In this document: positions 34,318 through 61,290 of the stretch, in pieces
Layout of the letters: each line of letters begins with the position of its first letter
How positions within the stretch are numbered: position 1 is the stretch's first letter
Assembly (NCBI GenBank): GCA_900314485.1
Contig: OMVL01000003.1
Coordinates: 33,149 to 97,148 of the forward strand
DNA: 64,000 nucleotides
Direction: 5' to 3'
Origin: an uncultured Eubacteriales bacterium
GTDB taxonomy: Bacteria > Bacillota > Clostridia > Oscillospirales > Oscillospiraceae
Made by a program: the position numbers and the translations under genes
The notes under the pieces: generated by a model
The model's input: only the letters and a program-made list of their open reading frames with translations
What the model was told of the DNA's origin: nothing
Databases searched by the model: none

Positions 34318-35286
34318 TCAGGAGGGAGAAAGGTCGGGATAGGTCTCCCGGTATTTGTTCAGGGCATTGCTCCAGTTTTCGTAGTCCGAATCCTTCCGGT
34401 GATCCGGGAGATCGTATTGCTCTGCCAGATAAGCTGCCATATAGCGGGAGAGCTTTGTGGCGCCGTACAGATTCAAATGGTCGCCGCCGTCCTGCCAGTC
34501 GGTCTGATGATCCAGCCCCAACTCATCCAGAGACAAATTCAGGTCCAGAAAAGGCACGCCGTTTTGCTCGGCAAATTGTTGGAGGATACTGTGCTTGGCG
34601 TAGTTCCAGTTGACCGGGCTGGGGGTGGCAACCAATAGGACAGGGATATTCCGACTGTCGCAGTAGTGCAGGATCCGCATCAGATAGATGCGGTTCAGAA
34701 GCGACAGAGACAGGACCTCGTCGGTAGGCGTCATATAATCAGAGCCGTCGTAGGCCTGGGTCTCTGTGCTGGGCTTAAATCCCTTGTTTGCTTCACGGTG
34801 GGTGTAAACGATGGGGGCAAGAATGCGCTTCGGCGTCAATGACTTCCAGTTGTCGTGGGTGATCATAATCGGAAAGCAGAGAGCGGATTGCTCATAGATG
34901 GCGTGATTCAGCGAAAACGTTCGGACGGCGGTCAGCCCCTCAATGATCACAAGGCGAGGCTGCTGATGAGCTGTGGCCTCAAGCAGATAGGAATAGGATA
35001 CATCCAGCGTCTCGCCGCCGATGGCGGAGACATAGGAGGTAAACCCGCCTGCGTCCCACATCTCCAACGGAGAATAGCTGGAATAGGATTCACTGTCCCC
35101 GAGAATCAGCACATCAATGGAACGCTCCCGCTCGGCCAAAAAGCCGTGGGCCATGATATAATACATGCCCGCATCGTGATTGTTGTTTTTCGGACGAAAG
35201 ACAACAGAGAGCAGGGATAGCATCAGAGCCAGAAGAAGCAAAAAGACGGCAGAGCGGAGCATATTTCGCATTAGCGTGTTCTTCAT
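34318..35286 (-). CDS. Membrane-anchored SGNH hydrolase-like protein, copy A (DltD-like role)
   Basis: 322 residues. One N-terminal membrane helix (SAVFLLLLALMLSLLSVVF), then an extracellular SGNH/GDSL domain: catalytic Ser65 in LILGDSESYS and a late DGGDHLNLYGA with the Asp-x-x-His pair. Size and anchoring are like DltD, the protein that acts with MBOAT DltB to move an acyl group onto teichoic acid. It is the last gene of the cassette and about half identical to the upstream copy. RBS GAGAGGAGCAGCC is the same as for the copy, showing a recent tandem duplication. It probably transfers the MBOAT-delivered group to a surface acceptor; the acceptor is unknown. Confidence 0.75.
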   Translation of the reverse strand: MKNTLMRNMLRSAVFLLLLALMLSLLSVVFRPKNNNHDAGMYYIMAHGFLAERERSIDVLILGDSESYSSYSPLEMWDAGGFTSYVSAIGGETLDVSYSYLLEATAHQQPRLVIIEGLTAVRTFSLNHAIYEQSALCFPIMITHDNWKSLTPKRILAPIVYTHREANKGFKPSTETQAYDGSDYMTPTDEVLSLSLLNRIYLMRILHYCDSRNIPVLLVATPSPVNWNYAKHSILQQFAEQNGVPFLDLNLSLDELGLDHQTDWQDGGDHLNLYGATKLSRYMAAYLAEQYDLPDHRKDSDYENWSNALNKYRETYPDLSPS

Positions 35287-35297
35287 GGCTGCTCCTC

Positions 35298-36269
35298 TCA
35301 GGATGTGGGGGTGGTGGGATGCTTTTGCCGATATAGCTCAAAGGCATCGCCCCAGCTCTCGTAGGCCGGGTCTTCCCGATGGTCCGGGAGATCGTAGGAC
35401 TGGGCCAGAATGGGCGCCAGGTAGGCAGAGGTCTTGACGGCGCCGTAGTGATTCAGATGGTCGCCCTTCTCGTCCCGAAAATCCGTCTGGCCGTCCAGCC
35501 CGATCTCGGCCAGAGCCAGATTCAGGTCCAGAAAGGAGACTCCTGCGGAATCGGCATAGGCCTGCATCGCCTCGTGCTTGGCATAGTTCCAGTTTTTCGG
35601 ACTGGGGCAGGAGAGGATCAGCATGGGGATGTCGTTTCCCTTGCAGTAGCGGACAATGCGGTCCAGATAGATGCGGTTGAACAGAGCGATCTCAGCGGTC
35701 TTGCCGCTGGGCTTCATATAGTCTTTGACCTCTTGGGCAAAGATGGTATGATCCGGCTTGTAGCCCCGGTTGGGCTGCCGATAGTTGTATACCACAGGAG
35801 AGAGCAAACGCTGAGGCGTCATACATTTCCAGCTGTTGTGAACGGAAAAGACGGGGAAAAACAGTGTTCCCTCAGTAAACAGACTGTCGTTGGCGGACAT
35901 CTTCCGAAAGGCAGGCAGTGCTTCCATCACCACTAGCTTGGGATGCTGGTGTGCAGTGGCTTCCAACAGAAAGGCGTAGCCATCATCCAGAGAGCATCCG
36001 CTGATAGCGCAGATATAGGAAGTAAAGCCGCAGGTGTCCCACATCTCCAGAGGAGAGTAGCCGGAGTAAGCCTCGCTGTCTCCCAGGAAGATGACATCAA
36101 TGGTGTCGTCCGGCTCACCCAAAAATCCGTGAAGCCGCTGCAGTTCCATGCCGGCGTCCTCGGTATTGTCTCTGGGCCGCAGAAGGAGAGCGGTCCCCTG
36201 CAGAAGCAGCGCCAAAAGCAGCAGAAAGGCGGCGGAACGGAGGAGGTTCCGAATGTGCGTATTCTTCAT
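35298..36269 (-). CDS. Membrane-anchored SGNH hydrolase-like protein, copy B (DltD-like role)
   Basis: 323 residues with the same layout as copy A: N-terminal helix (SAAFLLLLALLLQGTALLL), GDS motif with Ser65 (VIFLGDSEAYSG), PLEMWDTCGFTSYICAISG block II, and a terminal EKGDHLNHYGAVK with the catalytic Asp/His. Extra Cys residues (in block II and later) are not shared with copy A. Start at 36269 follows GAGAGGAGCTGCC. Both copies keep the catalytic residues, so both may act, perhaps on two acceptors. Confidence 0.75.
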   Translation of the reverse strand: MKNTHIRNLLRSAAFLLLLALLLQGTALLLRPRDNTEDAGMELQRLHGFLGEPDDTIDVIFLGDSEAYSGYSPLEMWDTCGFTSYICAISGCSLDDGYAFLLEATAHQHPKLVVMEALPAFRKMSANDSLFTEGTLFFPVFSVHNSWKCMTPQRLLSPVVYNYRQPNRGYKPDHTIFAQEVKDYMKPSGKTAEIALFNRIYLDRIVRYCKGNDIPMLILSCPSPKNWNYAKHEAMQAYADSAGVSFLDLNLALAEIGLDGQTDFRDEKGDHLNHYGAVKTSAYLAPILAQSYDLPDHREDPAYESWGDAFELYRQKHPTTPTS

Positions 36270-36280
36270 GGCAGCTCCTC

Positions 36281-37873
36281 TCAGAATCCGGCATAAATGG
36301 GATCCACCGGAGTGTATGCCTTGCCGTATGCGCCAAAGATGACGATGAGCAAAATAAACGCATAATAGCACAGCCAGCGGACAGGCAGCTTCTGCCTTGC
36401 CACGGTTTCACGGATGGACCGGCCACGCTCCTGCAAAATGCTGAAGGTCAGAACGAGAAGCACGCCGGCAATGACGACAAACAGATCCTTCCAGTCGATG
36501 CTCACCAGAAAGTCTCCGTTGCGGAAGGAGGCCAGGGTAAACTTTGTGAAGATCCGGCGGCACATGGAAAGTCCGGTCCGAAGTCTGGGGGCACGGAAGA
36601 ACAGCTCGCCGAAATTGACCAGAACGATGGTGCGCAGCACCTGCCAGCTCCGCCAGGGGAGACTCTGCCGGTCGATGTGCAGCTTGCCCAGGACCCACTT
36701 GTTGGTCGGCTCAAAGAAGTTGCCGGCAAAGATTAGGACAAAGTGGTACAGGCCGAAGAAGATGTAGTTCCAGGCCGAACCGTGCCACAGGCCGTTGCAA
36801 AACCAGACGCAGAACAGGGCGATACCGCTGGCCAGAACGGGACCGAAATGGTTACCCAGCTTTTTCCGGGCATTTGCGGTCAGCTTTTTCAGCGGGGCGG
36901 ACAGGGAGACGGGGTAGAAGATGTAATCCTTAAACCAGGTGCCCAGCGTGATATGCCACCGGGTCCAGAACTCCGAGATGGACTTGGAGAAGAAGGGATG
37001 GCGGAAATTCTCCGGCAGAGTGACGCCGAAGATCTCGCCGGAGCCGATGACCACATCCATAGTGCCGGAGAACTCCATATAGAGCTGGCAGGTGTAGCAG
37101 ACCATGGCCAGGGCGATGACCCCGCCGTCATACTTGGCGGGGTTGCTGAAAACCGCCAGAATCAGCGGGTTGAGCCGGTCGGCAATGACGATCTTCTTAA
37201 ACAGACCGTACAAAATCCGCTGGGCGCCGAAGGTCAGATTGTGATAGGTGACCGGCCGGCCCTCCCAAATCTGGTCTGCCGTGTCGGAATAGCGGCAGAT
37301 GGGGCCCTCGATCAGGGCGGGGAAAAAGCTCATATAGAGGGCCAGACGGGCAAGGCTCCGGTCGGGCTTCACCGTGCCCCGATAGACATCCACCAGGTAG
37401 GATACCGCCTGCATGGTGTAAAAGGAGATGCCGATGGGCATGGCAAAGGCAAAGGTGGGGATCTGCCAGGAAAGTCCGAGGGCAGTGAGCAGATGATTGA
37501 CATTGCCGCCAAAGAAATCTGCGTACTTCAGCACCAAAAGGAGACCTACATGGAACAGAATACCCAGGGTGAGTACCCCTCGTGTCTTTGCCTGATAGGC
37601 AGCCTTAATGGCCTTCCGCTCAGAGCGCTCCGCACCCTTGACCGCCAGATCCCGCTCTGTCTGAAATGTGCCCAGCCAGAGGCCGATGTGGTGGATGGAG
37701 ACGGTGGAGAGCAGCAGAAAGACCAGGAGTTTGCCGCTGATGGCAAAGAAAAAGGCATAGTCCGCTGCCAGCAGCAGCTTCCAGCGGTGCCGCTGGGGAA
37801 CGACCTGATAGGCCAGAACCACCAAAGGCAGAAAAACGACAAAATAAACGGGAACGCAATAGGAGGCTATCAT
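36281..37873 (-). CDS. MBOAT-family O-acyltransferase (DltB/AlgI type)
   Basis: 530 residues, about eleven to twelve membrane helices. MBOAT hallmarks: FWTRWHITLGTWFKDYIFYPVSL and the catalytic His in CNGLWHGSAWNYIFFG, plus FFPALIEGPICRY. Family members move an acyl group from a cytoplasmic carrier or CoA across the membrane to an outside acceptor, with an SGNH partner. Start at 37873 (MIASYC) has GAGGAAG upstream and sits 2 nt after the carrier gene stop. Neighbouring A-domain and carrier genes imply the donor is an aminoacyl- or aminoacyl-derived carrier thioester. Confidence 0.88.
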   Translation of the reverse strand: MIASYCVPVYFVVFLPLVVLAYQVVPQRHRWKLLLAADYAFFFAISGKLLVFLLLSTVSIHHIGLWLGTFQTERDLAVKGAERSERKAIKAAYQAKTRGVLTLGILFHVGLLLVLKYADFFGGNVNHLLTALGLSWQIPTFAFAMPIGISFYTMQAVSYLVDVYRGTVKPDRSLARLALYMSFFPALIEGPICRYSDTADQIWEGRPVTYHNLTFGAQRILYGLFKKIVIADRLNPLILAVFSNPAKYDGGVIALAMVCYTCQLYMEFSGTMDVVIGSGEIFGVTLPENFRHPFFSKSISEFWTRWHITLGTWFKDYIFYPVSLSAPLKKLTANARKKLGNHFGPVLASGIALFCVWFCNGLWHGSAWNYIFFGLYHFVLIFAGNFFEPTNKWVLGKLHIDRQSLPWRSWQVLRTIVLVNFGELFFRAPRLRTGLSMCRRIFTKFTLASFRNGDFLVSIDWKDLFVVIAGVLLVLTFSILQERGRSIRETVARQKLPVRWLCYYAFILLIVIFGAYGKAYTPVDPIYAGF

Positions 37874-37875
37874 GC

Positions 37876-38106
37876 TCAATCTTCCTCTTGCAGCCGCTGC
37901 ACCAGTGTCCAGATGGCATCTGCGGAGTTAAAGTTGGCAGGGACAATCTCCACGGCGGGGATGGTGATGTCAAAGGCATCCTCCAGCTCGGCAATGAGAG
38001 AGATGATGGACAGAGAAGTGAGCAGGTGTCCGTCGATCAGGTTGGTGGCGGTCTTAAAATCCACCTCGGGCTGAAGCTCTTCCAGAATTTCATACAGTTC
38101 TTCCAT
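37876..38106 (-). CDS. Acyl/peptidyl carrier protein (DltC-like)
   Basis: 76 residues. The phosphopantetheine site is Ser31 in DGHLLTSLSII; the helix II acidic stretch LIAELEDAFD is typical of carriers. DltC has a similar size but a DSMG core instead of TSLS, so this is closer to general ACP/PCP carriers. It sits between the decarboxylase (18 nt) and MBOAT genes, so it can take the amino acid from the adenylating enzyme, present it to the decarboxylase and hand it to MBOAT. A phosphopantetheinyl transferase must come from elsewhere. Confidence 0.88.
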   Translation of the reverse strand: MEELYEILEELQPEVDFKTATNLIDGHLLTSLSIISLIAELEDAFDITIPAVEIVPANFNSADAIWTLVQRLQEED

Positions 38107-38124
38107 GATGGTACTTCCTTTCTT

Positions 38125-39303
38125 TTACTCGTTTGTGGGGGTGTTAAAGGGATAGGTGGGGGTGATGGGCCGGACGGAGCGGAAAACGCCGCCCTCCTCC
38201 AGCAGCAGCACCTGGGGCAGCGCCCGGCTGAGGAAGAGGGAGATGCCCTCTGTCATGCAGTACGCGCCGGTGTTTTCAAAGGCGAAGACATCGCCGATCT
38301 GCAGGTCTTTGACCGGCAGCTGTTTGACTAAAATGTCGTTTGCGGTACACAATGCGCCGCAGAGGTTCCAAATCTCCTCGCCCTCGGGCCGAGGGGGATA
38401 GACCCTGCAGTGGGGCAGCTTCATCGCCATGCTCTGGCCGAAGTAGACCAGATGGTTCATGCCGCCGTCCAGAATGGCGTAGTTCTGACCCTTGTTCTGC
38501 TTCAGATCCACCACGCCGGTGAGATAGGTGCCGCAGCAGGCGGCAATGCCCCGGCCCAGCTCCAGTGTGATCCGGGCGGAGGTATTCAGGCCCTCCAGCA
38601 GGGCGGCAAACTCGGTGAGGAAGCTGTCCTCGTCAAATGCCTCCCCCTGGAAGTAGAAGGCGGGGAAGCCGGGGCCGTACTCCAGTTCCCGGCAGACAAA
38701 GCCGTCTTCCGCTTCCAGAGCGGCAATGAGCTCGTCCAGCCGCTCCAGCTCCCGCTTCAGCTTTTTCAGGGAGGTCTTCTGGGTGCCGGAGAAGTACTGG
38801 ATGCCCAGAATGTCCAGGCCGTCCCACTGGCTGCGGTTTGTGATGATCTCCCGCAGCACCGGCTTGTCCAGACCGAACTGGTTGCCGCTGGTCAGGCGGA
38901 GCAGCACCCGCAGGGTGGTATTCTGCTCCTTGGCTGCCTCCTGCAGCAGACGGAGATGGGCCGGAGATTCCACTGTATAAACGCCGATTTCAGGCTGGGT
39001 GGAGACCAGCTCCCGGATAAAGGCGGGAGTTTTGTAGACGCCGGAGATGACCAGCTTTTCCGGAGGGATGTTCAGCGCCTGGCACACCCGGTATTCTCCG
39101 GGAGAGCAGACCTCAAACCGGGGCATGCAGTCGTTGAGGGCTTCGGTAATAAAGGTGTTTGCCTTGATGGCATAGCACAACCGGACCTGCTCCGGCAGAT
39201 GGGAGCGGAGGTATTCCACGCGCTCTTTCAGCTTTGGGATGTCAAAGATATAGGCAGGGGTGCCGTAGTCACGGGCGACCTGCCCGATCTGTTCCGATGT
39301 CAT
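38125..39303 (-). CDS. Fold-type III PLP decarboxylase, BtrK/LysA-like
   Basis: 392 residues of the alanine-racemase-fold decarboxylases. PLP Lys47 lies in CYAIKAN; YFSGTQ (171-175) replaces the LysA HIGSQ-type loop; ELGR (248-251) is the EPGR variant; the catalytic Cys319 is in NLCGALCTANDIL; the end has AFENTGAYCMTEGISLFLSR. These features are closer to BtrK-like enzymes, which decarboxylate an amino acid bound to a carrier protein in butirosin synthesis, than to diaminopimelate decarboxylase. It overlaps the adenylation gene by 4 nt. Its substrate is therefore proposed to be the aminoacyl-carrier; free amino acids are the alternative. Confidence 0.82.
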   Translation of the reverse strand: MTSEQIGQVARDYGTPAYIFDIPKLKERVEYLRSHLPEQVRLCYAIKANTFITEALNDCMPRFEVCSPGEYRVCQALNIPPEKLVISGVYKTPAFIRELVSTQPEIGVYTVESPAHLRLLQEAAKEQNTTLRVLLRLTSGNQFGLDKPVLREIITNRSQWDGLDILGIQYFSGTQKTSLKKLKRELERLDELIAALEAEDGFVCRELEYGPGFPAFYFQGEAFDEDSFLTEFAALLEGLNTSARITLELGRGIAACCGTYLTGVVDLKQNKGQNYAILDGGMNHLVYFGQSMAMKLPHCRVYPPRPEGEEIWNLCGALCTANDILVKQLPVKDLQIGDVFAFENTGAYCMTEGISLFLSRALPQVLLLEEGGVFRSVRPITPTYPFNTPTNE

Positions 39304-40820
39304 CTGCGGCCTCCTCTCTTTAATTCGGCCAGGGCCTTGCGGTCGATCTTGCCGTTTTTCGTCATAGGCATCTGCTCCACCTGGGTCAGGGAGCCGGGAA
39401 CCATAAAGACCGGCAGCTTTTCCGACAGCGCCTTGTGCAGCTCCTTTTTATCCATATCGCCCACGTAGAAGCCCAGCAGCTTGCTCCGCCGCTCCTCAAA
39501 GATGCAGCAGGCCCGCTCGATGCCGGGGACCTGTGAGATGGCCCGCTCGATCTCTTCCAGCTCGATGCGGTGTCCCATGTGCTTGATCTGGAAGTCCTTC
39601 CGTCCGGCAAAGACCAGCTCGCCCCCCTCGTTGTAGTGGGCCAGATCGCCCGTCCGGTAGATCAGCTCCGGGTAGTGGGGGTTGAGAGGATTGGGGACGA
39701 AGTGGGCAGCGGTCTGCTCCGGGGCGTTGTAATAGCCCAGAGCCAGCGCTGTGCCCCGGACGCATAGCTCTCCGCTCACACCCGGCTCCGAGACCTCCCG
39801 GTCCTCACTGTCCAGCAGGAACACCTGCTCGTTGGAGAAGGGGAGACCGATGGGGATGCCGGCGGAGTAGTCCCGCTGACGGTCGATGACGTGATAGGTG
39901 CAGTTGCAGGTGATCTCCGTGGGCCCGTAGAGATTGACAAAACGGGCCTGGGGAAGGTGCTCCATCCAGGTGTTCAGGTGTTTGAGGGGCATGACCTCGC
40001 CGCTGAACAGCACCTGGCGTACCGTCTCCGGCACCCGGTAGTCCAGACCGTGGAAGGTGCTGATGAGACAGAGGGCGGAGACTGCCCAGACCATGACGGT
40101 CACTTTGTGCTGGCACAGAAAGTCCAGCAGCTCTGTGGGCAGGGAGAACAGCCGCCTGGGCACAATGACCAGCGTACCGCCCACTGCCAGAGCGGAATAG
40201 ATGTCCTTGACGGAGACGTCAAAGTCAAAGGGCGCCTGATTGGCAAAGACATCGGAATCGGAAAAGCCAAATTCCCGGGTAAAGACGTCGATGAAGTCCA
40301 GTACCGATCGATGACCCACCACGACACCCTTGGGAACGCCGGTAGAGCCGGAGGTGAAGTTGGCGTAAAGGGGGTCCAGGTCAAGCTGCCCGGCCTGCCG
40401 CCGGGCCAAAAGACCGGCGTCCTCCTCTTCGCTGAGCAAAGCGTCTGCCGTCAGCACCCGGTCCGCAGGGAAGAGGGCGAGAGCAGTTTCCCGATGGGCG
40501 TCGTCGGTGATGACCCACTGGGCGTCCAGCACCTCCCGGATCTGCTCCAGCCGGGCGGCGGGCAGCTCGGGATTGAGCAGGACATAGAAGCAGTCGGCAT
40601 AGGCGATACCCAGAAAGGCGGAGAGGGCGACAGCGGACTTGTCCATCAGCACCGGAACAGGACTGCGGGGCTGGCTGCGCCGGGCAATGGCCGAACCGAT
40701 GATACGGCTGCGGCGAAGCAGCTCGGCGTAGGTCAGAGACTCCGCTTCGTCGATCACCGCGGTTTTGCCTGGAAAACGAGAACACGAAAATTCAAGATAT
40801 TTTATTACGTTTTTTTTCAT
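39300..40820 (-). CDS. Amino acid adenylation enzyme (DltA/NRPS A-domain type)
   Basis: 506 residues, a stand-alone A-domain. Core motifs: A3 TSGSTGVPKG (156-165), A4 QAPFDFDVSVKD with Asp in the place that usually binds the alpha-amino group, A5 NLYGPTEITC, A7/A8 YRTGDLAHYNEGGELVFAGRKDFQIKHMGHRIELEEIE, and A10 KNGKIDRKAL with the catalytic Lys. It activates an amino acid with ATP and loads it on the carrier. Start at 40820 is preferred because earlier in-frame codons (40898) lie inside the promoter; no strong ribosome site precedes it, and ATG 40844 is possible. First gene of the cassette. Amino acid not predicted. Confidence 0.88.
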   Translation of the reverse strand: MKKNVIKYLEFSCSRFPGKTAVIDEAESLTYAELLRRSRIIGSAIARRSQPRSPVPVLMDKSAVALSAFLGIAYADCFYVLLNPELPAARLEQIREVLDAQWVITDDAHRETALALFPADRVLTADALLSEEEDAGLLARRQAGQLDLDPLYANFTSGSTGVPKGVVVGHRSVLDFIDVFTREFGFSDSDVFANQAPFDFDVSVKDIYSALAVGGTLVIVPRRLFSLPTELLDFLCQHKVTVMVWAVSALCLISTFHGLDYRVPETVRQVLFSGEVMPLKHLNTWMEHLPQARFVNLYGPTEITCNCTYHVIDRQRDYSAGIPIGLPFSNEQVFLLDSEDREVSEPGVSGELCVRGTALALGYYNAPEQTAAHFVPNPLNPHYPELIYRTGDLAHYNEGGELVFAGRKDFQIKHMGHRIELEEIERAISQVPGIERACCIFEERRSKLLGFYVGDMDKKELHKALSEKLPVFMVPGSLTQVEQMPMTKNGKIDRKALAELKRGGRR

Positions 40821-40898
40821 AATTGTGATACCTGCCGTTTGCATTTTATCTGCCTGCATATAATAGACAGATGCGGGTTCGTTTTTTGTTGCAGACAT

Positions 40899-40927
40899 AT
40901 CTTAACACCGGAAAAGTGTTTCGTCAA
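40899..40927 (-). promoter_or_regulatory. Predicted promoter of the Dlt-like cassette
   Basis: Minus strand: TTGACG (40927-40922), 17-nt spacer, TAAGAT (40904-40899). Start near 40892, about 70 nt before the A-domain ATG. Confidence 0.65.
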
Positions 40928-48822: not shown

Positions 48823-51735
48823 TTAATTTGATTGCAGGGACTCCGCCTGGGTCAGAAGGTTGCCGCAGCCGTCAATGGCGGACTGGCCGCCAATGACGCA
48901 GACGGTGGACTGCTGAGCCACCTCGTTCAGCAGTTCGGCAAACGACCGCAGTTGTTCTCTTGTGACGTGGAGCACCTCAGAGCGAGCCTGCTGCCGATCC
49001 TCGTGAGTAATGTCGCAAAAGTACAGACCGGCGGCGGCAGAGGCCTCCAATCTGGGACTAAGCACCGGCTCCATCCGGCCAATGGTGCTGATGATGTACC
49101 TGTCCAGCGCCTCGCCGCTGTCACAAAAGCTGAGGAGAGCGGCTCCGGTTCGGGTAAAGACTTCCAGTGACTGGCCGCAGCGGGGATCCCGATAGGAGGA
49201 GAAATTGACCTGTCCGTCGTCCCGGACGTTGAGAGAGACACCGTAGGCTCCGCCCTTGACCCGGACGGTGTTCCACAGGTAGTCCAGGGTCAGCAGGTTG
49301 GCAGCCACTCTGGCAGCGCCGGTGCGTCTGCTGCCCAAAAGGGAGAGACTTCCGCTGCGGGCGGCATAGCCGATGTCAGCGGAGACGAGGAAGCCCTCTG
49401 CCTTGGCATTCAGAGGGACATACTCTGCCCCATTCCCCTTTACCCCGGAGGGCAGGGCGCTCAGAACATCCCTCAGCCATAGGTCATCCCGTTTCCCGGT
49501 GAAGCTGAGAACCACCCGCTCCCGGACGAAGACCGTCCGGCAGAGATCGGCCAGAGCGCCGCACAAAGCTGCCCCCTCCGTCTCAAAGGACTTCTCCTGC
49601 TTCTGACGCCAGCGGAGCTGAGAAATGCCGAGCAGATGCTCCTCCACGGTGTTGGATGCGCTGAAAGAGGAGGCGGCTCGCTGGACGGCGTAAAGATTGC
49701 CGGAACAACGGATGGCCTGCTCCAAGCTGATGCGGGACTGACGAAGCCGATTGGAAACGGCGGCGCGGTCGTCGAACTTAGTGGTGAGGAGCACCTCCCG
49801 CAGCAGTGCAAGCGCATCTTGCTTGCGGCTTTCCAGCAGGGAGAGGGAGACGACCAGATAAGGCTCGCACTTCACATTCTGTCCCCGCTTTGCAAACACC
49901 TTAGGGCGGACGCTGAACCGGCCCAGCTTGCCCTCAATCTCACCCAGCAGCTCCAGGGGGCTATAGTGCTCGGTGGCCAGATCGCCCAGCACCTCCCCCA
50001 GCAGGGGCAGCAGCTCCAGCGTCTCCAAGGGCAGATCGTCCACAGCGAAATAGAGATCCAGATAGGCGATGCCATCGGTGTCGATGTCCTGATAGAGCAA
50101 CGTCGTCCCGTCCAGCTGCTCTGCGCGGCTGCGGAGACGGGGCGTCTCCTCCGGAATATCGGAGAGGGAAAGTGTGGGGAGCGTGGCGATCTGCTCCGGC
50201 GTGTCCGGCTGTGCCTGTCTGGCACGAAGGGCATCGAATTCCGCCTTTACCGTCTCAATCTCCTCCGCTGTCCAGCCCGCCTTGATCCGGGCCAGCTCCG
50301 CCTCCTCCGCCTTGCTCCGCTCCTCGCCGAGGGTGGGGGAGGGGAGGAGGCACACCTTTGCCTGATGGGGATTTTCCAGAAAGACCGAGCGGAGCAGGGC
50401 TTCAAACCAGCCCTCGTCGATCTTCTCCCGGAGGGAGCGGAACAGCTCGTCGCTCAGCAACGGCTGGGCGGGGTCGCCGCCGTAGAGCCAGCTGTCCAGC
50501 GTTTCCATGGCGTAGACCAGCCCCCGGGGCATGGTGCCGAAGTCCTTCTCCCGGGCGGAGAACTCCATCTGGTTCAAAATGGCGTGGAGCCGGTCGTGGT
50601 CAAGGCCGCTTTCCACAAGCCCGGTCAGCACCTCGGTGACCGCGTTCCAGACCGTGTTTTTGTTCTCTTTGGTGGTATTGCGCACCAGAAGCATGACGTA
50701 GGGCTGCTGGATGCTCTCGCCCATGTTGAGCAGTACCACATCCTGTGCAAGCCCCCGCTCCAAGAGCGCTTTTTTCAAGGGTGCTTCGTTAGAGGCGCAG
50801 AGCAATTGACACAGAGCGCCGCAGGCCGCCGCCCGCTCCCGCTCGGCAAAGCTGCCCACCATCCAGCCCGCAGCCAGCAGCACCTTGTCTGTGGGATCCT
50901 CCGCCGGGCTGATCTCGTAGGTCGTGGTAAACTCGGCAGGGGAGACGGGAGCCTGCATGGGAATGTCGGCGTCCACTGACAGCCGGTCGTAGGGGGCGAG
51001 GAAGCTGTCCAGCTTGGAGAGCGCCTTGTCCAGATCGACCTGACCGTCCAAAAAGATGCGGGCGTTGGAGGGATGATAGTATTTGGCGTGGTTTGCCAGA
51101 TAGTGCTCGTAGGTCAGCTCCGGGATATGGTCGGGATGACCGCCGGAGACATAGCCATAGCAGTTGTGGGGAAAGAGCAGGCGATTCAGCTCCGCCATCA
51201 GCGTCTGATCCGGGTCGGAGAAAGCGCCCTTCATCTCGTTATAGACCACGCCGTTGCGCCTGAGCGCACCATCCGCACCCTCCAGCTCATAGTGCCAGCC
51301 CTCCTGACGGAAGGCGGTAGGGTCGGAGATGCTGAGGGGGTGGAAAACGGCGTCCAGATAGACGTCCATCAGATTGAGAAAGTCCTGCTCATTCCGGGAA
51401 CAGACGGGGTACATGGTCTTATCCGGGAAGGTCATGGCGTTGAGGAAGGTCTGAAGCGAGCTCTTCAGCAGCTCCACAAAGGGCTCCTTCACGGGGTACT
51501 TCTCCGAGCCGCAGAGGACGGAGTGCTCCAGAATGTGGAAGACGCCGGTGTCATCCTGAGGGATGGTCTTAAATGCGATGGAAAAGGTCTTGTTGTCGTC
51601 GTCCCGGTCCAGCCAGACCAGATCGGCTCCGTTTTTTTCGTACTCCATGCGGTACAGCGTGGCATGAAGCTCGGGGAGCGGCTGTACATAGCGCACGGCA
51701 AAGCCGTGAAGCCGGCTTCCGGTGGTCAATTCCAT
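48823..51735 (-). CDS. M16C-family metalloprotease (presequence protease/PreP type)
   Basis: 970 residues, the full length of bacterial PreP/Cym1-like enzymes, which degrade unfolded peptides inside a closed chamber. The inverted zinc motif is His67-x-x-Glu70-His71 (FHILEHSVLCGS), with the distal Glu in VVYNEMKGAFSD. The M16C linker and two further M16 lobes follow. No signal peptide; cytoplasmic. Start at 51735 has AAGGAG upstream. Monocistronic between two terminators. Confidence 0.92.
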   Translation of the reverse strand: MELTTGSRLHGFAVRYVQPLPELHATLYRMEYEKNGADLVWLDRDDDNKTFSIAFKTIPQDDTGVFHILEHSVLCGSEKYPVKEPFVELLKSSLQTFLNAMTFPDKTMYPVCSRNEQDFLNLMDVYLDAVFHPLSISDPTAFRQEGWHYELEGADGALRRNGVVYNEMKGAFSDPDQTLMAELNRLLFPHNCYGYVSGGHPDHIPELTYEHYLANHAKYYHPSNARIFLDGQVDLDKALSKLDSFLAPYDRLSVDADIPMQAPVSPAEFTTTYEISPAEDPTDKVLLAAGWMVGSFAERERAAACGALCQLLCASNEAPLKKALLERGLAQDVVLLNMGESIQQPYVMLLVRNTTKENKNTVWNAVTEVLTGLVESGLDHDRLHAILNQMEFSAREKDFGTMPRGLVYAMETLDSWLYGGDPAQPLLSDELFRSLREKIDEGWFEALLRSVFLENPHQAKVCLLPSPTLGEERSKAEEAELARIKAGWTAEEIETVKAEFDALRARQAQPDTPEQIATLPTLSLSDIPEETPRLRSRAEQLDGTTLLYQDIDTDGIAYLDLYFAVDDLPLETLELLPLLGEVLGDLATEHYSPLELLGEIEGKLGRFSVRPKVFAKRGQNVKCEPYLVVSLSLLESRKQDALALLREVLLTTKFDDRAAVSNRLRQSRISLEQAIRCSGNLYAVQRAASSFSASNTVEEHLLGISQLRWRQKQEKSFETEGAALCGALADLCRTVFVRERVVLSFTGKRDDLWLRDVLSALPSGVKGNGAEYVPLNAKAEGFLVSADIGYAARSGSLSLLGSRRTGAARVAANLLTLDYLWNTVRVKGGAYGVSLNVRDDGQVNFSSYRDPRCGQSLEVFTRTGAALLSFCDSGEALDRYIISTIGRMEPVLSPRLEASAAAGLYFCDITHEDRQQARSEVLHVTREQLRSFAELLNEVAQQSTVCVIGGQSAIDGCGNLLTQAESLQSN

Positions 51736-51784
51736 TAGTGGTTCTCCTTTATTCAAATCAGAATTTATGGTACTACTGTATCAG

Positions 51785-59461: not shown

Positions 59462-61063
59462 TCAGCCCTGGGCAATGACCTTGTCCCGGGCCTTGTAATA
59501 GCTGTAAGCCTCCGGCTCCGAGGAGATAAGGTTGCCCTCTCCGTCGTAGAGCTTGCGGTAAGTCTGTACCTTGTAGCCGGTATAGGGGGTGGTGATGACC
59601 TTGGTCTCCCCGTCGTCCAGACTGCTGTCATGCTGGGTCTTGACGGAGTAGGGGATGGTCTCCAGTGTCTCGCTGGTGATCTTGACAGTGATGTCGTCGG
59701 TTTTGGTGCCGACAATGCTCATAGTCACCTTGCCGTTTGCGTAGGAGCCCACCACCTTAATAGGGTAGGGGGTATTGTTGGTAAACTGATAGTCCGGGCC
59801 GCCCCAGGAGACGGTGGCGTCCATGCCCAGGCCAATATAACTGGAGGCAAAGCTGTGGTTGTGCCGCTCGGTGATCTCCAGATTGGCATAGAGACAGGCG
59901 GCGTAGAGGGTAGAGGAGGTCTGGCAGATGCCGCCGCCCACCTCCTGAATGGTCTGACCGTTCTGATAGGCGGGGGCCTCGGAGAAGCCTCTGGCCTTGG
60001 TCCGCTGGCCCACGGTGCCGTTATAGGAGAAGGTCTCGCCCGGCAGCAGGATGGTGCCGTCACAGAACTCGGCAGCCAGCTTTACATTGCTCCGCCGTCC
60101 GCTGGAGCCGGAGACATTGGTGGAGTAGCTGCCCAGGGTGTCCTGGAAGAGGTGTTCTTCCAGATTGGCGGTGTCAATCTCCGGGTCGGTAAAGACCAGG
60201 TCGATGGTGATCTCGCCGCCCTCCTCGGCGGCTTCCAGCGCTGCCTTGGCAGCCTCCGCGTCAAAGGAAACGCCGGTGACAGAGGGGACGATGGCATAGT
60301 CGTTCTCCGGGTCCAAGGTGGCGTTTGCCGGCGCGGTATAGACCTCGTCATAGATCTTCTGAATATCCAGAGCGGCGATGTCGCTGACAGAGGTGGCGGC
60401 GTCAATGGTGTAGGTCACCGCCCAGGGGTCGGAGAGGAAGGCGGTGAGGATCTGGCCCTCAATGGCGTCCAGATCGGCCACAACGCCGGAAGAGCCCTTG
60501 CTGATGGTGATGGCGCTCTCTCCCACGGTGTAAGTGGTCTCCACGGCAGTGTCCACCTGGTCAATGCCGGTGGAGATAATGGCGGCTTTGAGGGCGTCAC
60601 CCCCCTGAATGGCGGGGACAGCGGTCAGCTTCTGCCCCTGTGCCTGAGCGGCAAGCCAGTCCAGGCCCCGGGTGAGAAATTTGCCGTGGCCCAGCGCCAT
60701 GGCCTCGTCAATGGCGGCGGAGGGGTCCAGAGAGAGAATGCTTCCGTCCTCGGTCCATAAAGGGACCGCATAGGCATCTCCGGCCAGAGTTACAGTGGCG
60801 GAGCTATTGTGATAACGATCGGAAAAGTCGGAGCGAAGGGCGGCCTCGGCCTCTGCCGGGGTCATGCCGCTGACGTCTACGTCATTGATATAGGTATGGT
60901 CTAAAAGCGCTCCTTCCGGCACACGGGTGCAGAGGAAGAGGTAGATCCCCAACACCAGCAGCACCACCAGCAGGAGTACGATCAGAGACCAGCGGAGCAA
61001 AAGCCCCGTCTTTCTTGCGGATTTCTTTTTCGTTTTAACTGTTGCAGTCAGCCTGCTTGCCAT
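59462..61063 (-). CDS. VanW-family membrane-anchored protein with peptidoglycan-binding-like domain
   Basis: 533 residues. A basic N-terminus and one membrane helix (SLIVLLLVVLLVLGIYLFL), two PG_binding_4/YoaR-like segments (~residues 60-300, GMTPAEAEAALR is typical), then a VanW domain (LLPGETFSYNGTVGQRT, EVGGGICQTSSTLYAACLYANLEITERHNHS) to the end. Such proteins are found in vancomycin clusters and widely in Clostridia, likely acting on the cell wall; enzymatic role unproven. No other van genes are present, so this is not evidence for resistance. Confidence 0.88.
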   Translation of the reverse strand: MASRLTATVKTKKKSARKTGLLLRWSLIVLLLVVLLVLGIYLFLCTRVPEGALLDHTYINDVDVSGMTPAEAEAALRSDFSDRYHNSSATVTLAGDAYAVPLWTEDGSILSLDPSAAIDEAMALGHGKFLTRGLDWLAAQAQGQKLTAVPAIQGGDALKAAIISTGIDQVDTAVETTYTVGESAITISKGSSGVVADLDAIEGQILTAFLSDPWAVTYTIDAATSVSDIAALDIQKIYDEVYTAPANATLDPENDYAIVPSVTGVSFDAEAAKAALEAAEEGGEITIDLVFTDPEIDTANLEEHLFQDTLGSYSTNVSGSSGRRSNVKLAAEFCDGTILLPGETFSYNGTVGQRTKARGFSEAPAYQNGQTIQEVGGGICQTSSTLYAACLYANLEITERHNHSFASSYIGLGMDATVSWGGPDYQFTNNTPYPIKVVGSYANGKVTMSIVGTKTDDITVKITSETLETIPYSVKTQHDSSLDDGETKVITTPYTGYKVQTYRKLYDGEGNLISSEPEAYSYYKARDKVIAQG

Positions 61064-61290
61064 AATGGACCCTCCAATGTCAATAAATACCAACAGGGTG
61101 TAATCAATCATTTTTCAGTATATCGAATTCTTCCCCAAAATTCAAGGTCAAACACGCAGAGATACCTTGCAAATTCTGATGTTTGTTGTTATAATAACCA
61201 TTGTGAACAAAAATGGGGTGGGGCGGCTTGTCGTTTTCCACAATTCCAGTCACAGGAAACAAAAGAAATGAAATCAGTTCGGAGGCATGC

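Follow-up and report, generated by a model that had tools for sequence, protein, structure and literature searches.

The window analysed here is a stretch of 64,000 nucleotides from contig OMVL01000003.1 of an uncultured Eubacteriales bacterium (assembly GCA_900314485.1). It contains a cassette of six packed genes on the minus strand (34318-40898), which encode a stand-alone adenylation domain (A-domain), a pyridoxal phosphate (PLP)-dependent decarboxylase, a carrier protein, a membrane-bound O-acyltransferase (MBOAT), and two proteins of the SGNH type (SGNH1 and SGNH2). The earlier note on this DNA had named six co-directional, tightly linked genes of these kinds, and all six open reading frames (ORFs) were found on that strand. 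The features of the cassette were as follows.

39300-40898, minus strand: stand-alone amino acid adenylation domain, DltA-like (TIGR01733 and TIGR01734 scores; lengths of homologues).
40206-40208, minus strand: Lys231 of the A-domain (alignment to cassette A-domains and to DltA of the same order).
38125-39303, minus strand: fold-type III PLP-dependent decarboxylase with BtrK/VinO-like active-site residues Lys47, Phe171, and Cys319-Thr320 (PF02784 and PF00278, profile search, residues, trees).
37876-38106, minus strand: carrier protein with the phosphopantetheine site Ser31, codon 38014-38016 (PF00550).
36281-37879, minus strand: MBOAT acyltransferase with a DltB core and two C-terminal helices, TTG start (PF03062, TIGR04091, fold match, model).
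36284-36301, minus strand: putative C-terminal acyl-shuttle hexapeptide PIYAGF of the MBOAT, Tyr529 (alignment; motif FXYXXF as given in part of PMC12148441).
35298-36269, minus strand: SGNH1, with a hydrophobic N-terminal segment and GDSE and GDHLN blocks (sequence, family alignment).
34318-35286, minus strand: SGNH2, with an N-terminal helix and 53% identity to SGNH1 (AlphaFold2 model, Foldseek).

The genes of the A-domain and the decarboxylase overlapped by 4 nucleotides (39300-39303), as did those of the carrier and the MBOAT (37876-37879), and the remaining junctions were gaps of 18, 11, and 11 nucleotides. The cassette had been drawn to end at 40927, where no gene boundary was found. Since many homologues are about 506 residues long, translation of the A-domain more likely starts at Met27 (40820) than at the opening of the ORF at 40898. 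The Pfam models scoring over their cut-offs were AMP-binding and its C-terminal domain, Orn_Arg_deC_N, Orn_DAP_Arg_deC, Ala_racemase_N, PP-binding, and MBOAT; the NCBIfam equivalogs for DltA, LysA, the exosortase decarboxylase, DltC, and DltB all matched the cassette below cut-off. The key residues reported earlier were in place, namely Lys47 and Cys319 of the decarboxylase, Ser31 of the carrier, the MBOAT histidines (H309 and H366), and the GDS serines of both SGNH proteins. The description of SGNH block V as DxxH was not literally correct: the family consensus was RDKGDHLN, with Asp at positions -1 and -4 from the His, and protein P0005 had one extra residue between the Asp and His of this block.

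Loci for comparison were collected by a decarboxylase search, which gave 13 of the 295 genomes of the order (the host included) and 44 named loci of the collection. Besides the window, 56 loci were compared (the 44 named loci and 12 extended stretches); the two sets may overlap, and the loci are not all independent. The full order A-domain-decarboxylase-carrier-MBOAT-SGNH was kept in 50 of the 56, so that the suggested co-occurrence of the five families across genomes was borne out. Contig ends cut three loci (L039, L044, and L067) and three were rearranged, to A-domain-decarboxylase-SGNH-carrier-MBOAT in the Eggerthellaceae loci L040 and L041 and to A-domain-carrier-decarboxylase-MBOAT-SGNH in L074. 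The A-domain adjoined the decarboxylase in all 56 loci (one gene apart in L074), and since these were found via the decarboxylase alone, the grouping is not due to chance. A carrier was present in 54 loci, the other two being cut by contig ends. Cassette ORFs broken by stops or frameshifts occurred in L029, L049, and L062, perhaps through assembly errors. The residue counts given below include the window and were drawn from 51 of the 56 loci for the A-domain (ORFs of at least 480 residues; L029, L032, L036, L047, and L049 dropped), 55 for the decarboxylase (L062 dropped), 54 for the carrier (L039 and L067 dropped), and 53 for the MBOAT (L039, L049, and L067 dropped); the SGNH alignment contained 35 hand-picked members, and the trees contained 21 of the 56 loci plus the window. 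The pairwise distance matrices of the A-domain and decarboxylase (0.875), decarboxylase and MBOAT (0.878), and A-domain and MBOAT (0.882) were correlated (49 rows) to a degree that none of 999 permutations reached, and the three genes co-diverge. Records with the cassette included those titled Ruminococcus bromii, Faecalicoccus pleomorphus, Candidatus Agathobaculum, and Eggerthellaceae. The decarboxylase family was rare in a sample of the phylum (4 of 398 genomes, the host included), and two further matches from this sample stand outside the 56-locus set. The number of SGNH copies varied, with a maximum of four in Clostridiales bacterium NK3B98 (L020:11049-15035), where four tandem SGNH genes followed the MBOAT and block I read GSS, not GDS.

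In its active-site residues the decarboxylase resembled enzymes of the BtrK/VinO kind. BtrK decarboxylates its substrate on the BtrI carrier according to the available part of PMC7857480, and carrier-bound decarboxylation by the VinN/VinO/FlvO systems is described in that of PMC10662134. Lys47, Arg136, and Cys319 were constant in 56 of 56 rows. The place of the PLP-stacking His (His198 of FigC; PMC7857480, in part) was aromatic in all 56 cassette rows (54 Phe and 2 Tyr) and likewise in all 8 reference rows of the BtrK/VinO/exosortase kind, and the His was kept in 12 of 12 canonical LysA rows and 5 of 5 rows of the citrate-siderophore type. The residue after the catalytic Cys was Thr (36) or Ser (20) in the cassette and Glu in 11 of the 12 canonical LysA rows, and the YN motif of LysA was replaced by FL or LL in 55 cassette rows, one row being gapped. 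The aromatic residue combined with Cys-Thr/Ser was found in every cassette row and, among 29 reference rows, only in the 8 of the BtrK/VinO/exosortase kind, a signature drawn up in this analysis from few, non-independent reference rows. The idea of a BtrK-kind decarboxylase thus agreed with an active-site pair common to BtrK, VinO-like, and exosortase-type enzymes. The pair and a nearby carrier, the two marks of the BtrK/VinO type, were present in 56 of 56 rows and 54 of 56 loci, respectively. A carrier was known or found close by for five of the eight reference rows (BtrK, L078, L079, L081, and L113), and these five carry the residue argument. A profile built from 12 cassette decarboxylases retrieved BtrK first from the PDB (164.2 bits), followed by 6knh/6knk (159.3), of which 6knk is SbnH (PMC7857480, in part), and LysA (149.5). 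The cassette enzymes differed from BtrK and VinO in a shorter loop before QFG and in an EGIxLFLSR block of their own. About 14 residues were missing between Arg136 and QFG, and one may guess that the shorter stretch opens the active site to the carrier.

The carrier matched PF00550 with 22.2 bits (cut-off 20.8), and Ser31 was present in 55 of 55 rows. The MBOAT matched the DltB model TIGR04091 with 159 bits, below the cut-off of 375, and H309 and H366 were found in 28 of 28 aligned homologues. Its structural model (mean predicted local distance difference test score, pLDDT, 87.4) comprised a DltB-like core, two further helices (463-484 and 498-517), and a low-confidence tail, and a Foldseek search returned DltB first (8jem/6bug). 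The C-terminus ended in the motif (P/F)xYxx(F/Y), with Tyr in 54 of 54 rows, Pro (53) or Phe (1) as the first residue, and Phe (51) or Tyr (3) as the last. This putative acyl-shuttle motif (PIYAGF in the window), which was absent from the earlier note, is to us the most telling hint at the mechanism. According to the available part of PMC12148441, PatA acetylates itself on the Tyr of a C-terminal FXYXXF motif (FIYANF in Neisseria gonorrhoeae), and DltB uses DltX in place of a fused motif; where the motif is fused to the MBOAT, the enzyme has two additional helices and its pathway does without a carrier. The marks of an MBOAT-SGNH acyl-Tyr system (MBOAT His, FXYXXF-like tail, and SGNH partner) were all found in the cassette, with the first motif residue mostly Pro. 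The catalytic Ser65 and His270 of the SGNH family were invariant in 35 of 35 members. SGNH2 gave a sub-threshold Pfam GDSL match and SGNH1 none; the AlphaFold2 model of SGNH2 (mean pLDDT 94.9) showed an N-terminal helix and was matched by Foldseek to TesA and other SGNH/GDSL hydrolases. No DltD match was found for either SGNH protein (Pfam and NCBIfam, E ≤ 0.01), nor in Pfam for the 35 family members. A separate DltX microprotein was also sought in the cassette loci and rejected: short ORFs ending in an FxYxxF-like motif occurred in 7 of 56 loci, one each; six ran antisense to the cassette and the seventh (L038) lay more than 2 kb beyond it, and they were read as chance.

The A-domain passed the general model TIGR01733 (352 bits, cut-off 317) and stayed below the cut-off of the DltA model TIGR01734 (275 of 560 bits). 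Asp227 was present in 51 of 52 rows, and position 231, which we take to be PheA-239 when numbered by the motifs, was Lys in 51 and Arg in one (L074). Val228, Trp271, Ser299, Cys331, and Asn332 were also near-constant in the pocket. A profile search of the PDB retrieved A-domains of nonribosomal peptide synthetases (NRPS) and DltA, with no revealing nearest relative among them. In DltA loci of the same order, position 231 held Val, Leu, or Ala, and Cys stood in for Ser299 (9 of 9; nine of the 14 in the order with a strong DltA match were compared). The cation at position 231 hints at a substrate with a second carboxylate, and this would favour loading before decarboxylation; that Lys231 itself anchors the carboxylate is a guess. 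Locus L074 was divergent, with an A-domain that lacked Asp227 and carried Arg231 and with a canonical MBOAT tail (FVYMQF), and its cassette possibly handles another substrate.

The pocket also bears on whether the PLP enzyme might instead be an epimerase that acts on an alpha-aminoacyl carrier and yields, for example, a D-aminoacyl group. The enzyme belongs to the alanine racemase fold superfamily (PF01168 match), and Lys at the PheA-239 position presumably recalls the Glu-activating NRPS code, but the decarboxylase C-terminal domain PF00278 is present and the catalytic Cys was constant in 56 of 56 rows, and we regard an epimerase as very improbable.

Comparison with the Dlt loci of the order addressed another explanation, that of a usual D-alanylation operon in which a lysA gene is misplaced or moonlights. 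DltC and DltB were indeed the best NCBIfam matches of the carrier and the MBOAT, and DltA models came next after the general A-domain model; however, all three matches lay below cut-off. The DltA cut-off is strict, as none of the 295 genomes of the order reached 560 bits, although 14 had a match at E ≤ 1e-120, with scores of 408-503 bits. Across the 57 cassette genomes DltA scored no higher than 305 bits, and none fell within 408-503, but because only 14 of 295 genomes have a strong DltA, its absence from the cassette genomes is not clearly unexpected. DltB followed DltA in 8 of the 9 Dlt loci, whereas the decarboxylase and carrier lie between the A-domain and MBOAT in the cassette. The DltB ORFs were 380-392 codons from stop to stop and lacked the shuttle motif in the 8 of 9 loci where DltB was found, and in 3 of 5 longer stretches there was a separate ORF close by that ended in FVYAQF or FVYNEF. 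A decarboxylase was seen in none of these loci (8 short and 5 longer stretches), while the A-domain, carrier, and MBOAT of the cassette travel and diverge with the decarboxylase, which is present in all 56 loci by the design of the search. An ordinary D-alanylation operon is accordingly the least probable of the alternatives considered, and barely credible. Canonical Dlt itself was rejected on the DltA and DltB scores (275 of 560 and 159 of 375 bits), the lack of DltD, and the differing pocket and MBOAT form. The proposed distinctness from D-alanylation as curated was upheld, the pocket being unlike that of 9 of 9 DltA loci and suited to an acidic substrate.

A PLP alpha-decarboxylase requires a free alpha-amino-carboxylate, and loading onto the carrier must therefore use the side-chain or distal carboxyl. 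This points to Asp, Glu, methylated Asp, and diaminopimelate as natural candidate substrates, a narrower set than the acyl groups listed earlier. In the proposed pathway, the A-domain would adenylate a dicarboxylic amino acid at its side-chain or distal carboxyl and load it onto the phosphopantetheine of the carrier. The PLP enzyme would strip the free alpha-carboxyl on the carrier, as in BtrK/BtrI and VinO/FlvO, a step suggested by the residues and gene context. The MBOAT would bring the omega-amino-acyl group through the membrane and onto the Tyr in its PIYAGF motif, as the motif, helices, and fold suggest, in analogy to PatA with acetyl and DltB/DltX with D-Ala. The two SGNH proteins would then move the acyl group from this Tyr into ester linkage on a surface polymer, perhaps at differing sites or on different polymers. 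The transferred group would add positive charge, as D-Ala does, and would most likely be beta-alanyl from aspartate, with gamma-aminobutyryl (GABA) from glutamate and lysyl from diaminopimelate as alternatives. Beta-alanyl is the first choice because the cassette pocket presumably resembles a small-substrate code, because thioesters and esters of GABA are prone to cyclisation, and because of the starter units of VinO/FlvO; GABA is ranked below it because of this cyclisation and because no protecting enzyme was seen beside the cassette. Taken on its own, the beta-alanyl assignment is tentative and somewhat doubtful. In the available part of PMC10662134, 3-amino-2-methylpropionate and beta-alanine are the starter units given for the VinO/FlvO decarboxylases, and protection against cyclisation is described for the macrolactam case. 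A beta-alanyl ester is isomeric with a D-alanyl ester, and therefore a simple mass measurement cannot separate them.

From the residues, motifs, and gene order we lean towards reading the cassette as a Dlt-like envelope aminoacylation system that delivers a decarboxylated amino acid. The fuller proposal, a third envelope aminoacylation chemistry with side-chain loading, on-carrier decarboxylation, and export by an MBOAT with a built-in Tyr in the form of a beta-alanyl ester (alternatively GABA or lysyl), stands in our estimate at about an even chance.

Several results weigh against these proposals. The lone decarboxylase sequence (P0002) matched LysA in the PDB (108 bits) better than BtrK (94), and its score with the LysA model TIGR01048 (160 bits, cut-off 298) was slightly above that with the exosortase-A-associated model TIGR03099 (156.5 bits, cut-off 478). 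Four of four class-II LysA-like rows also had Phe at the place of the PLP-stacking His, but with Cys-Glu and YN. The residue signature rests on few rows, two of which (L078 and L113) are near-copies; no carrier was annotated within 5 kb in L075, small ORFs before the decarboxylases of L088 and L112 gave no PP-binding match, and in these three only an adenylating enzyme was annotated. Lys231 is not common to the VinN-like A-domain, and Asp227 is missing from the A-domain of the outlier L074. In the trees, a first version that included a long-branch row grouped the cassette with the BtrK/VinO/siderophore types at 94/81; this grouping was set aside and a second tree used because the support vanished when the row was removed. 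In the second tree the LysA clade and the cassette branch were each supported at 100/100, and the cassette decarboxylase lay outside the LysA clade. The firm grouping with LysA that was to count against the earlier proposal was thus not seen, although a sister relation to LysA was not rejected by the approximately unbiased (AU) test (p 0.437). The cassette with seven BtrK-kind rows gave an AU p of 0.517 and appeared in 21% of 200 bootstrap trees, with few reference rows, and support for the cassette with the siderophore type was 67/65.

The single-sequence scores, which slightly favour LysA, and the sister relation that the AU test did not reject speak for another explanation, in which the decarboxylase acts on free Asp, Glu, or diaminopimelate and supplies beta-alanine, GABA, or lysine to the A-domain, the rest being Dlt-like. 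However, the Glu that follows the catalytic Cys in LysA was Thr or Ser in all 56 rows, its YN was FL or LL in 55, a product without a second carboxyl would leave Lys/Arg231 without evident use, and the host already has a lysA-type gene. We consider decarboxylation of the free amino acid unlikely, though it is the most serious competitor. That the cassette enzyme is LysA itself was rejected on its score, its position outside the clade, the Cys-Thr/Ser and FL/LL residues, and the separate host gene (L003; C37:5747-6976 of the host genome), which scored 273 bits against the TIGR01048 cut-off of 298. The enzyme of this host gene belongs to a class with Phe for the PLP-stacking His and a sub-cut-off TIGR01048 score, like relatives in several families of the order.

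The genome of the host (1.77 Mb in 76 contigs, 97.7% complete) contained one PP-binding match besides the cassette carrier and one match to the phosphopantetheinyl transferase family PF01648. Among cassette genomes, the teichoic polymerase family PF04464 was found in 4 of 13 (3 over cut-off), with seven matches in the host. In 9 of the 13 cassette genomes searched (of 57) there was no PF04464, other teichoic routes such as LtaS not being searched; wall teichoic acid of that route is therefore not the acceptor everywhere, and teichoic acid as a general acceptor is weakened. Two adjacent, strong PF04464 glycerophosphotransferase-like genes (C74:190-2557) are candidates for making an acceptor polymer in the host.

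Of the 41 loci with enough flanking sequence, 15 had a response regulator and a sensor kinase no more than 3.5 kb upstream (co-directional in 13; e.g., L033:4119-6310), and 2 of 41 had two-component genes downstream (Fisher p 0.0007, the loci not being independent). The upstream genes suggest control of the cassette by envelope stress. No two-component genes stood beside the cassette of the window, which is flanked by what looks, judged by eye, like a transporter for branched-chain amino acids and by a protein that contains a Listeria-Bacteroides repeat. The neighbour clusters that recurred in at least four loci were two of two-component type and one like an ATP-binding cassette (ABC) transporter (6 loci), all named by eye, and no further biosynthetic genes recurred. 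This neighbourhood argues against a role in which the decarboxylated, carrier-borne acyl group passes via the MBOAT and SGNH proteins to a small molecule or lipid, either secreted or in the membrane, rather than to a wall polymer, as does the description, in the available part of PMC12148441, of shuttle-motif MBOAT-SGNH pairs that acylate envelope polymers. In favour of such a role, most decarboxylases of this kind work in small-molecule pathways, and the missing PF04464 would fit it; we nevertheless hold it to be distinctly improbable.

Among known systems, Dlt (DltA-DltC-DltB-DltX-DltD) resembles the cassette in its stand-alone A-domain, carrier, DltB-fold MBOAT, SGNH protein, and likely acyl-Tyr relay; the cassette differs in the extra decarboxylase, another A-domain pocket, a shuttle fused to the MBOAT instead of DltX, and no match to DltD models. 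PatA/PatB-type acetylation shares the MBOAT with two extra C-terminal helices, the terminal Tyr shuttle, and the SGNH partner, but uses acetyl-CoA as the donor, whereas the donor of the cassette is presumably the carrier protein. By combining a carrier with a fused shuttle tyrosine, the cassette would join two types, the carrier-protein donors of Dlt and the fused-tyrosine MBOATs of Pat, that are treated as separate in the available part of PMC12148441. The BtrK/BtrI system of butirosin and the VinN-VinL-VinO/FlvO systems of macrolactams share its active-site residues and the proposed sequence of a dicarboxylic amino acid on a carrier followed by PLP decarboxylation, but they make antibiotics, whereas in the cassette the module is coupled to a putative pair for export and transfer to the envelope. 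The exosortase-A-associated ligase (TIGR03098), decarboxylase (TIGR03099), and carrier have the same gene order as the cassette, but no MBOAT or SGNH protein was annotated within 5 kb in the one locus compared. In an exosortase-type locus of Sinorhizobium meliloti pSymB (L078:3316-6445), an AMP-forming ligase, decarboxylase, and carrier, ordered as in the cassette, lay beside glycosyltransferases and a polysaccharide deacetylase. In a Streptomyces locus, an A-domain and a decarboxylase adjoined a methylaspartate mutase. No description of a Dlt-like or MBOAT-SGNH operon with a decarboxylase was found in the open-access literature (titles and abstract openings). The parts are of known kinds and the combination appears to be new, and the cassette is filed as MBOAT-SGNH aminoacylation that works like Dlt but outside the curated models of Dlt.

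In many Gram-positive bacteria, surface D-alanylation determines charge and how well the cells resist cationic peptides. Bacteria that have the cassette, some of them from gut and rumen, probably modify their surface with an amino acid other than D-alanine, one that has lost a carboxyl group. If this is true, an undescribed wall chemistry would be present in some gut and rumen commensals, including records of Ruminococcus bromii, and the cassette proteins are open to one-by-one study in vitro. Elsewhere in the window, a VanW-like protein with a G5 domain was encoded at 59462-61108 and a large metallopeptidase of the M16C/PreP type at 48823-51756.

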